Of a stretch of DNA of 64,000 nt, positions 25,390-60,851 are shown piece by piece. This DNA comes from Gynurincola endophyticus (GTDB lineage: Bacteria; Bacteroidota; Bacteroidia; Chitinophagales; Chitinophagaceae): the NCBI RefSeq assembly GCF_003991195.1, contig NZ_RCWL01000010.1, positions 1-64,000 on the forward strand. The letters are read 5' to 3'. The first letter of the stretch is position 1, and each line of letters begins with the position of its first letter. A program made the position numbers and the translations under genes. Under the pieces are notes generated by a model, which was given only the letters and a program-made list of their open reading frames with translations, did not search any database and was not told the origin of the DNA.

Positions 25390-26832
25390 ATGGTATTCAA
25401 CAGTATTCCGTTTCTTGTATTCGCAGGAATCTTTTTTCCCGTATACTTCCTTTTAAAAGGACGACCCCGATTGTACTGGAGCTTGCTGGCAAGCTACTTT
25501 TTTTATGCATGGTGGGACTGGCGCTTTGTGCCGCTGATTCTATTCTCCACTTATTTTGATTATGAGTTTGGTAGAATTATTCATAACTCAAACGAACCTA
25601 AGAGACGAAAAACCATGCTCATTCTGAGTATGATCATGAACCTTGGTTTTCTGGGCTTCTTCAAGTACTTCAACTTCTTTATAGACAGCTACATCGCCAT
25701 GATGCAAGGTTTTGGCCTGCAGCCGTCCGTCTCTTCACTCAATATCATCTTACCGGTCGGTATTTCGTTTTACACCTTCCAATCAATGTCATATACCATT
25801 GACGTGTATAGAAGGGAAATACCCATGGAAAAAGACTTCCTCAAATTTGCCACCTTTATCGCGCTCTTCCCACAGCTGGTTGCTGGTCCGATCGTACGTG
25901 CGAAAGACCTCTTATTCCAGATGGGAGAAGATAAAAAGTTCAGCTGGACCAATCTGAACAGTGGTTTAGGGCGTATACTGTGGGGTTTCTTTAAAAAAGT
26001 AGCCATCGCAGATTCCATTGCACCTTTTGTGGATCAGTGTTTTCAAGACCCGATGCGTTTCGGAAGTATGCACCTCCTGATCGGAGTTGTGTTCTACGCC
26101 TTCCAGATATATTGCGATTTCTCAGGATATAGCGACATGGCAATCGGTTTGGCCAGAATTATGGGCTACCATTTCCCTGAAAACTTTAAAACACCCTATT
26201 TCTCTAAATCGTTCTCCGAATTCTGGACCCGCTGGCATATCTCTCTGTCATCATGGTTAAGAGACTATTTATATATACCATTAGGAGGTAACAGAAAAGG
26301 TAAAGTGCATACCTATAAAAATAATATGATTACCATGTTATTAGGCGGATTATGGCACGGAGCTAACTGGGCATTTGTATTCTGGGGATTCCTGCACGGC
26401 GTATATCTCATCGTGCAAAGAATCGTAACACCCGTCTGGCGGAAATTTGTTGCGCTGGTACGATTACCGAAATTCCTCGACGACGGTATTGCGATGCTCG
26501 TTGTATTCGCACTCACCTGTATAGCCTGGGTATACTTCAGGGCCGGAAGTATGGGGCTTGATAGCTTCCATATAGCCAATCAGATTCTTAAAATCATTGC
26601 ATCCGGTGAAGATTTTAACTGGCACAGTACCTTCAATAAGTATCAGATCATAAAGGGCTTCCTGGTAATTGGTGTATTACTGATAGTGGAAGTAACAAAT
26701 GTCAGATTCCAATGGAACCACCTGCAATTACAAAAACCTGCGGTACGGGTAATTCTATTTGCCGGAGCACTGTGGTTAATTGCATTGTTCGGAACCTTTT
26801 CTTCTAACGCATTTATTTACTTCCAATTCTAG
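25390..26832 (+). CDS. MBOAT-family O-acyltransferase (AlgI-like)
   Basis: A 480-residue membrane protein with about 10-12 helices. Family marks are PYFSKSFSEFWTRWHISLS followed by WLRDYLYIPLGGNRKG, and the catalytic His323 in GGLWHGANW. In alginate and cellulose acetylation systems such proteins move acetyl groups across the membrane. The gene at 26838-27704, an SGNH-like secreted partner, starts 6 bases after its stop codon, so the two form a probable O-acetylation operon. The polymer is unknown. Confidence 0.93.
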   Translation: MVFNSIPFLVFAGIFFPVYFLLKGRPRLYWSLLASYFFYAWWDWRFVPLILFSTYFDYEFGRIIHNSNEPKRRKTMLILSMIMNLGFLGFFKYFNFFIDSYIAMMQGFGLQPSVSSLNIILPVGISFYTFQSMSYTIDVYRREIPMEKDFLKFATFIALFPQLVAGPIVRAKDLLFQMGEDKKFSWTNLNSGLGRILWGFFKKVAIADSIAPFVDQCFQDPMRFGSMHLLIGVVFYAFQIYCDFSGYSDMAIGLARIMGYHFPENFKTPYFSKSFSEFWTRWHISLSSWLRDYLYIPLGGNRKGKVHTYKNNMITMLLGGLWHGANWAFVFWGFLHGVYLIVQRIVTPVWRKFVALVRLPKFLDDGIAMLVVFALTCIAWVYFRAGSMGLDSFHIANQILKIIASGEDFNWHSTFNKYQIIKGFLVIGVLLIVEVTNVRFQWNHLQLQKPAVRVILFAGALWLIALFGTFSSNAFIYFQF

Positions 26833-26837
26833 AAGTC

Positions 26838-27704
26838 ATGAAAAAACTATATTGGATTTTAGGCCTTATTGCTTTGTATTTTATAGGTGACCGCCTGGTC
26901 GGTTACTTCTTTCAGCAACAGATTGAGAAAAGCCAGTTCCGCTACTCCAGAATGTATGCAGGAAATGGTGAAGCAGATATCCTCATTGTTGGTAATTCAA
27001 GAGGATTGAACTTTTATCAACCCTATATGGATTCGGTTACTAACCAAAATACTTTCTCATTGTGTTATTATTCAATGCCTCCTGAAATGGCTATTGTAAT
27101 GACAAAGGATTATATCGATCAGTATCCGAAAGTGAAAAAAATTCTGGTAGAACTGACGCTGATTGAAATGTCAGATGATAAACTATTACCCGGCTTTGCT
27201 ACATACATGAATTTTTCACCGAGAGTAGATTCGGTGATTAAAGTAAAAGATAAACAAAGCTGGAACGCATCACAGTTGTCACATCTTTTCAGATACAATA
27301 ATGAAGTGTTTCAACGTGCGATGTACTATCGTAATAAGTTGGATGATGATTGGTACTTTGACAGAACCATCACTGAAGCTTTTATTCAGGATGCACCCAA
27401 CAGAAGTGTAACCTTTAAAGTCAATGATACTTTGATTCGTCAATTGGCAGAAATCGGCGCATATGCTAAAACAAAAGGTATAGAAGTGTATTATATCATG
27501 GGGCCGTTTTTTCCAACTTATCCTGTTCATAACCTGGATAAACTATTGGCGCGATTCACTGAATTAACCGGTTATCCGGTTATCAATTACAGTAGAAGTA
27601 TTCAGGATCCGTATTCATTTACAGACTATCTGCATGCAAATTTAAAAGGAGGACGGGCAACGGTTGATCTGATGATAAAAGATGGTATTCTGAATGTTCA
27701 ATAA
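26838..27704 (+). CDS. SGNH-hydrolase-like partner of the MBOAT protein
   Basis: A 288-residue protein with one N-terminal signal-anchor helix (about residues 4-22), then a periplasmic SGNH-like domain. The nucleophile motif is ILIVGNSRG with Ser54, and the DxxH motif is DYLHANLKGG with Asp263 and His266. In AlgJ/AlgX-type systems, the SGNH protein transfers the acetyl group delivered by MBOAT to the polysaccharide. A terminator follows at 27748-27780. Confidence 0.8.
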   Translation: MKKLYWILGLIALYFIGDRLVGYFFQQQIEKSQFRYSRMYAGNGEADILIVGNSRGLNFYQPYMDSVTNQNTFSLCYYSMPPEMAIVMTKDYIDQYPKVKKILVELTLIEMSDDKLLPGFATYMNFSPRVDSVIKVKDKQSWNASQLSHLFRYNNEVFQRAMYYRNKLDDDWYFDRTITEAFIQDAPNRSVTFKVNDTLIRQLAEIGAYAKTKGIEVYYIMGPFFPTYPVHNLDKLLARFTELTGYPVINYSRSIQDPYSFTDYLHANLKGGRATVDLMIKDGILNVQ

Positions 27705-27747: not shown

Positions 27748-27780
27748 AAGCTGTTTACGTTGAGTGAGCAGCTTTTTTTT
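27748..27780 (+). terminator. terminator of the MBOAT-SGNH operon
   Basis: AAGCTGTTTAC (27748-27758) pairs with GTGAGCAGCTT (27764-27774) using two G-U pairs, then eight T residues follow. Confidence 0.85.
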
Positions 27781-27839: not shown

Positions 27840-28320
27840 GGTATCCTTCTAACGGTGACTAATACTTTATATTCATATTTCATTTTGGGAAAATAACTCC
27901 GTATTTGGGAATCTCTTATCTGTAATCTTCACCTTAAAATAACGGGTTCGAAAAAAAATATTTTATTTATCCGCCGAAAGTAAAGCCTGTAGCCGGTTAT
28001 AACGAAGTATTTCGTTATAATGCGATGAATTTAAGTGTTTTGGCACAGCGTTCGTTAATATGAGTTCAACTGCACCGTCATAGGTTGTGATGCAGGGCAC
28101 AGTTTCGTTTGTTTGACGATAATCGGCAACTGTGGGGAAAATGAGCGATGCATCAGTTACAAATTATGAAAAGAGGCTTTAGGCTCAATTGAAACTATTT
28201 GCTTTTTTGAATGAAATGTAACTTGTGCAATTACTCTAATTTTTTCGAGATATAGTTTAGTTGGATTTGAAAATGGGACCTGAGGCCGCCTCAATTTTTT
28301 GAGTGCGGCCTCGCTTTTTT
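27840..28320 (+). ncRNA. candidate structured non-coding RNA region with orphan terminator
   Basis: A 750-base gap (27705-28453) holds no credible protein gene. It contains three successive inverted repeats: TTATAACGAA/TTCGTTATAA (27997-28020, perfect), CTGCA/TGCAG with inner TCAT/GTGA (28070-28095), and CAGTT/AACTG (28100-28132). It ends in a perfect terminator stem GAGGCCGC/GCGGCCTC (28282-28312) followed by T6. Because the upstream operon already ends at 27780, something else must be transcribed into this terminator. The 5' end is not defined; the boundary given is approximate. I do not recognise tmRNA, RNase P RNA or SRP RNA motifs. It could also be decayed sequence. Confidence 0.35.
28282..28320 (+). 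terminator. strong orphan terminator
   Basis: GAGGCCGC (28282-28289) and GCGGCCTC (28305-28312) pair perfectly, with inner TCA/TGA pairing around a T-rich loop, then GCTTTTTT. No coding region ends upstream within 500 bases. Confidence 0.85.
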
Positions 28321-28453
28321 ATGGAAAGTGGCACTGCAAAATGAATTAAGAATTAAGAATTGAGAAGGTGATATTCCGAAAAATAGCGCGGCACTTCGTT
28401 TTTAATTTTCAACTTTCCTTTATCAATTATTATTACTAGTTTGTGAATAAAAA

Positions 28454-28957
28454 CTGAACTTCGAATCTTACATATCTCACCGCATCACCCTCAAAAGAAA
28501 TGAGTTGTTATTGTCTGAACAGGCAATAGATGACAATGCATATATTGTATTAAATGGTACAGTAAGGGTGTATGTAATGATTGGAGAAAAAGAACAGAAT
28601 ATCCGTTTCGCCTATTCGGGTGAAATATTCACACATATGGATTCATTTTTTCAAGATATACCTTCACAGTATTATATAGAAGCTATTAAAGCCTGTGAAA
28701 TAGGAGTGATTCCAAAAGCGGCGGTGATGGATTGGGTAGCGGCATCGGTTGAAAATCTGCAATTCTGGAATAAACTGTTAACGGCTCATTTGCTGGGTTC
28801 ACTGGAGCGGGAGATGGACCTGTTGATTGAAAAACCGGAGGAAAGAGTTGCCCGTGTATTATTAAGATCACCGCGCCTCTTTCAGGAAATTCCTTTACGG
28901 CATATTGCTAATTATCTGCGAATGACACCGGAAACCTTGTCGAGAATCAGGAAGTAG
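28454..28957 (+). CDS. Crp/Fnr-family regulator with non-standard or lost start codon
   Basis: A regulator with an N-terminal cyclic-nucleotide-binding-like domain (NAYIVLNGTVRVYVMI ... GEIFTHMDSFF) and a C-terminal helix-turn-helix ending LRMTPETLSRIRK, as in short Bacteroidota Crp/Fnr proteins. The first ordinary start is a TTG at 28505 (150 residues), but family-like sequence continues upstream in frame (YISHRITLKRNELLLSEQ) to a stop at 28448-28450. The only plausible initiation there is CTG at 28454, giving 167 residues. No ATG or GTG exists in that stretch. It may use CTG or TTG, or be a 5'-decayed gene. Target genes are unknown. Confidence 0.6.
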   Translation: MNFESYISHRITLKRNELLLSEQAIDDNAYIVLNGTVRVYVMIGEKEQNIRFAYSGEIFTHMDSFFQDIPSQYYIEAIKACEIGVIPKAAVMDWVAASVENLQFWNKLLTAHLLGSLEREMDLLIEKPEERVARVLLRSPRLFQEIPLRHIANYLRMTPETLSRIRK

Positions 28958-60134: not shown

Positions 60135-60440
60135 ATGTCTCAAAGAATAAGAATCAAATTACAGTCTTACGATCACAATTTAGTTGATAAATCAGCTGAG
60201 AAAATCGTTAAAACTGTTCGTAGCACCGGAGCAGTGGTAACAGGTCCAATTCCTTTACCTACTCGTAAAAAGATATTTACTGTTTTACGTTCGCCGCACG
60301 TGAATAAGAAGAGTCGTGAACAATTCCAGTTATGTACGCACAAGCGTTTATTGGATATTTACACTTCTTCTAGCCGCACTGTAGATGCGTTGTCTAAATT
60401 AGACTTACCGTCAGGTGTTGAGGTAGAGATTAAGGCGTAA
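60135..60440 (+). CDS. rpsJ: 30S ribosomal protein S10
   Basis: The 101-residue small-subunit protein S10, first of the S10 cluster. Recognised by [41 protein letters not shown] and [15 protein letters not shown]. It is separated from rplC by 411 bases that include a terminator-like hairpin, unusual for this cluster. Confidence 0.97.
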
Positions 60441-60445
60441 GAAAG

Positions 60446-60495
60446 TGCTCCGTTGGGTTCTCTTATTAGTTAGGAGGAACGAACGGGGTGTTTTT
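60446..60495 (+). terminator. terminator-like hairpin after rpsJ
   Basis: CTCCGTTGGGTTC (60448-60460) pairs with GAACGAACGGGG (60477-60488) by 11 pairs with a small internal loop, followed by GTGTTTTTCTTT. It could end the rpsJ transcript or attenuate entry into rplC. Confidence 0.6.
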
Positions 60496-60514
60496 CTTTA
60501 TAAGAGTTAATTAA

Positions 60515-60851
60515 GATCTTTGCAAACCTATCTGTAAACTTTGTGATGAATCACAGATAAAGCAGCGCTGGGTATACAAATAAAAACATTTCGCCCGCTT
60601 GCGAAGGCGGGCGAAAGTAGCTAACATTAAACAAAATATGAACTAGCCCTTCGCGGTTAGTTTACTATTGGTACTTCCTAAGTTATGTATCGATTGAGGT
60701 AACGAAGGTTATTTAGATACGAGAAACGCAAACGGAAAAGGTCAATAGCAAACGGGGATTGAAGTTGTCATGGTTGTACAGGCCGCGTATGCGCATAATG
60801 TATTTCTATTGCAATTGTCTCTTAAACCAAGAAGGCAAAAACAGAACAACG
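60515..60851 (+). promoter_or_regulatory. rplC: putative structured rplC leader
   Basis: A GATCTTTG element (60515-60522) could be a weak -7 promoter. Downstream lie TATCTGT/ACAGATA (60529-60559), which competes with TGTGAT/ATCACA (60542-60555); a perfect 10-pair stem TTTCGCCCGC/GCGGGCGAAA (60589-60616); and AACTAGCC/GGTTAGTT (60641-60662) around CTTCGC. The middle one resembles dispersed GC-rich palindromes common in this phylum. The competing pair suggests a switch. No coding region is evident. Confidence 0.45.

Follow-up and report, generated by a model that had tools for sequence, protein, structure and literature searches.

A strong intrinsic terminator on the + strand at 28282-28320, with no gene directly in front of it, raises the question of which transcript it ends. 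It lies in a window of 64,000 nucleotides (the whole stretch of DNA that was analysed) from a genome of 4.5 Mb in 32 contigs which, judged from the neighbouring genes, appears to belong to the Bacteroidota. This terminator is found in an intergenic gap between genes of the + strand: an MBOAT-SGNH operon (25390-27704) ends upstream of it, and a Crp-like gene (28451-28957) follows. The ORF at 25390-26832, upstream of the SGNH ORF, was assigned to the MBOAT family (PF03062, E 5e-32). The last gene of the operon (26838-27704 in the ORF list, + strand) gave no Pfam match and keeps the label SGNH from the original prediction; its closest named relative is found in Chitinophagaceae bacterium PMP191F. 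The stop codon of this ORF at 27704 is followed by the operon's own weak terminator (27748-27780, + strand, 11 pairs of which 4 are GC), identified in the terminator scan, in agreement with the prediction that the operon ends by 27780.

The second terminator is much stronger and is one-directional. Both folding and the scan revealed a 13-bp stem (28282-28311) followed by a T run, with a folding energy of -24.6 kcal/mol (z -7.0) that was equalled in none of 300 shuffles, and the nearest same-strand gene end is about 600-610 nt away, hence the predicted strong terminator without a preceding gene is indeed present. When 384 kb of the genome were scanned, 86 terminators were located outside coding sequence, and for 24 of them no ORF on the same strand ended within 300 nt; some of the 24 are the reverse face of terminators of convergent genes. 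Orphan terminators are not rare in this genome, and the one at 28282-28320 is extreme among them, as the strongest of the 24. A near-identical terminator design, GAGGCCGCCTC-loop-GAGGCGGCCTC, was observed in family genomes at loci L071 (1463-1496) and L072 (near 1530-1560).

Folded as a + strand RNA, the region 27990-28325 reaches -105 kcal/mol, compared with -80 kcal/mol for shuffled sequences (z -4.9, 0/100 as good). The excess is also seen when the terminator is excluded, both for 27990-28275 (z -4.05) and for 28058-28275 (z -3.45), with no equally good fold among 150 shuffles in either case. The preceding AT-rich spacer at 27840-27990, a possible promoter region on the + strand, is unstructured (27840-28022, z -0.1), therefore the unit would be about 330 nt long, or longer if transcription includes an extended unstructured 5′ end. 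The interval originally proposed as structured, 27840-28320, is thus to be narrowed to its part from about 27990 onwards.

The predicted fold starts with hairpin A (27992-28024, -11.5 kcal/mol), a perfect 10-bp stem (27997-28006/28011-28020) with the loop GTAT, for which z was -3.5 and a single one of 300 shuffles did as well. It is followed by a multibranch domain (28062-28268) closed by helix P1 (28062-28075/28255-28268; helix probabilities 0.86-0.93) and containing P2 (28076-28092), P3 (28098-28134) and P4 (28135-28246), all on the + strand. P4 is a long rod of 112 nt with 42 pairs and small internal loops, one of them a 2x2 GA/GA loop. Across the fold ensemble the helix probabilities amount to 0.81-0.95. 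Of the three inverted repeats mentioned in the original prediction, the perfect 10-pair stem was recovered as described. For an inverted repeat at 28088-28106/28137-28155 the pair probability is about 0 when 28058-28325 is folded; forcing this repeat as a second fold costs about 9 kcal/mol and it was rejected. In the model the 112-nt rod, and not any of the simple hairpins listed, is the strongest feature apart from the terminator.

The stability of the rod was compared with that of shuffled sequences and of other intergenic DNA. Folded as 28130-28255 it gave z -4.7, equalled in 0 of 200 shuffles, and in the intergenic survey of the 64 kb it was the second lowest of 368 windows with z -5.3, scores that are flattered by the rod boundaries having been picked after the fold was viewed. 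A value of z at or below -4.5 was found for 7 of the 368 windows, several of which we take to be terminators. On a fixed grid of 120-nt windows the terminator alone stands out, because the grid cuts the rod. Stem length alone was dropped as a criterion, since a stem of at least 42 pairs appeared in 37 of 300 shuffles; the rod is remarkable for its stability, not for its length. Another structured gap was noticed in the window at 60441-60840, where more than 300 bases separate an S10-like ORF (60135-60440) from an L3-like ORF (listed from 60759), in what we take to be a ribosomal-protein operon. The lowest z among the windows of this gap is -5.1, and a strong hairpin, TTTCGCCCGCTTGCGAAGGCGGGCGAAA, is present near 60589-60616.

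The structured region also differs between its two strands. The fold of 28058-28275 reaches -61.4 kcal/mol on the + strand versus -37.4 kcal/mol on the - strand, and that of the rod -34.0 versus -19.2 kcal/mol, a gap to which G-U pairing on the + strand contributes (in the rod, 7 of 43 pairs). At 58.6%, the G+T content of 27990-28320 falls within the top 0.8% of 330-nt windows, and the GC skew climbs from about 0 to 0.2-0.3 at around 28000. Fold asymmetry, G+T content and GC skew all point to the + strand, as does the terminator, and the stronger folding of the + strand is as selection on a + strand RNA would give.

These data bear on the possibility that the MBOAT-SGNH operon has a long 3′ UTR comprising the whole region, with a leaky terminator at 27748-27780 and a fail-safe one at 28282-28320; the hairpins would then be 3′ UTR structure, possibly a 3′-UTR-derived sRNA. 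The common strand, the gap without a gene and the weakness of the first terminator with its 4 GC pairs agree with such an arrangement. However, composition and structure shift abruptly at about 28000 instead of being continuous with the gene, and fail-safe terminators usually lie close behind the first one, so we consider this explanation unlikely.

The gap was also searched for coding sequences and known RNAs. The ORF list contains no ORF of at least 100 aa between the two terminators, and neither the three frames of the + strand, translated with stops written as X, nor three short - strand ORFs gave a Pfam match at E 1, so that no coding relic was found in the frames tested. The Rfam search of the window at gathering score gave no match and below it only chance-level ones, e.g. 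to snoRNA and Drosophila models. No riboswitch or aptamer family of Rfam matched and no tRNA or tmRNA was found. Like 6S RNA (6S-Flavo, RF01685), the candidate contains a long rod, but it differs in its multibranched model, in having no large central bubble and in the lack of an Rfam match; the 6S-Flavo model found no match in this genome or the relatives searched, nor did it in the control genomes. Among phages, plasmids and viral contigs there was no match, and the structured part has no further copies in its own genome.

Homologues at the DNA level were found neither in 59 closer relatives nor in 394 family genomes nor in 298 order genomes (overlapping sets; cut-off E 1e-4 at the order level), the best matches in relatives and family being short ones of the kind expected by chance. 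R1, a covariance model built on the fold, gave no homologue in the 394 family genomes and 295 relatives, nor, in a synteny check, a match at the PMP191F locus (L069) that carries the only named relative of the SGNH gene; the few weak R1 matches inspected as possible homologues turned out to be look-alike terminators. Homologues with compensatory base changes were accordingly absent from the DNA and R1 searches of the sampled family and order genomes, among which the genus is represented by one species. R1 was built from one sequence entered twice, and because such a model is insensitive to diverged homologues, the apparent lineage restriction holds for close similarity only.

The lack of homologues in relatives would also be expected of a decayed remnant, an old gene or mobile element outlived by its terminator, with repeats arising by chance or as relics. 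In favour of decay, low-complexity repeats of the AATTAAGAATT type adjoin the region at 28344-28437 and have short copies elsewhere in the genome, and the downstream Crp-like gene has no ordinary start codon. Nevertheless, the Pfam searches were negative even at E 1 for the + frames and the short - strand ORFs, the structured part is single-copy, and strong strand-specific folding is not expected of a relic. We regard a remnant as improbable.

The repeat in question is a low-complexity inverted repeat, AATTAAGAATTAAGAATT ... AATTTTCAACTT, situated just 5′ of the Crp-like gene, and its short copies were seen at loci L002, L003 and L004. The Crp-like gene itself (28451-28957, + strand, counted from the first in-frame codon past the upstream stop) encodes a cNMP-binding domain (PF00027, E 9e-12). 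Its conserved N-terminal part (KLNFESYISHRITLKRNELLL) is preceded by no ATG, GTG or TTG. Past the stop, the earliest in-frame start is TTG at 28505, too far downstream, and the GTG at 28443 belongs to a different frame, closed immediately by a TGA behind an A5 run. Either the start codon is unusual, or the anomaly stems from a frameshift or from an error in the assembly.

The order of a structured domain, a terminator and a same-strand gene suggests another role for the region, that of a 5′ leader controlling the Crp-like gene at 28451 by transcription attenuation. A possible closing helix on the + strand, P0 (28041-28288; 28042-28053 with 28276-28287), was deduced from folds of the nascent RNA, with a pair probability of about 0.9 in folds ending at 28293-28304. 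When the nascent RNA is folded as far as 28300, the terminator's 5′ arm (28280-28287) is paired with 28042-28048, also with a probability of about 0.9, and the inner part of P0 is predicted to compete with this arm. The domain closed by P0 would thus oppose the terminator and, once P0 is stabilised, the polymerase would read on. Terminator-platform riboswitches and attenuators are similarly built, with a structured domain preceding an intrinsic terminator and a helix able to pair with its 5′ arm. The conflict is small, though, since the terminator and the outer part of P0 are both present when the full-length RNA is folded. The candidate is also unlike those systems in the large gap to the gene (130 nt from the terminator), in matching no Rfam riboswitch, and in that the related Crp-like loci tested gave no R1 match and hence have no conserved leader. 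An attenuating leader is therefore, in our judgement, rather doubtful, and its most elaborate form, a new lineage-restricted class of large structured RNA in which the P0-closed multibranch domain controls the terminator as an ON-switch leader of the Crp-like regulator, is very improbable.

The interval is still read most simply as a non-coding RNA. The terminator-independent folding excess, the strand bias and the G+T content speak for it and strengthen the case beyond that of the original prediction, and its length is more likely about 330 nt than the roughly 480 bases originally put forward as the upper limit. In particular, there is about an even chance that 27990-28320 is an independent, lineage-specific small-RNA gene of the + strand. 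The region ends in a Rho-independent terminator away from gene ends and contains no protein-coding gene in the frames tested, two of the features expected of intergenic sRNA genes. Against such a gene, no promoter stands out, no homologue was found, and 7 of the 368 intergenic windows have z-scores of -4.5 or lower. Upstream of the structured part no match above 5/6 was found to TAnnTTTG, the -7 element of Bacteroidota; near-matches of 5/6 are, by our estimate, expected by chance.

As we infer its transcription, boundaries and mode of action, the candidate would have a promoter of its own within 27840-28000, and its RNA would fold into hairpin A, the multibranch domain and the long rod. The transcript would end at the intrinsic terminator near 28320, would measure about 330 nt, or at most about 480, and would probably regulate in trans, via its unpaired linkers or via a protein bound to the rod.

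Such a gene is plausible and would be of an ordinary kind. Within the phylum, sRNAs that are intergenic and end in an intrinsic terminator form a normal class: 49 have been described with high confidence in B. thetaiotaomicron, and northern blotting confirmed nine of the eleven intergenic candidates tested (PMC7366714). Of the 49, 27 are strain-specific (PMC7366714), so that poor conservation is normal for the class. The candidate resembles B. thetaiotaomicron sRNAs such as GibS in its intergenic position, its own intrinsic terminator, the AT-rich genome and the phylum, whereas GibS is a largely unfolded RNA of 145 nt with a conserved seed (PMC7366714) and the candidate is predicted to be heavily folded and about 330 nt long.

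A full-text search of a limited set of papers for small RNAs of Chitinophaga returned a single paper, which was unrelated. If it is transcribed, the region would add one more well-folded sRNA candidate for Chitinophagaceae; the general picture would be unchanged, strain-specific intergenic sRNAs being already known from Bacteroides.
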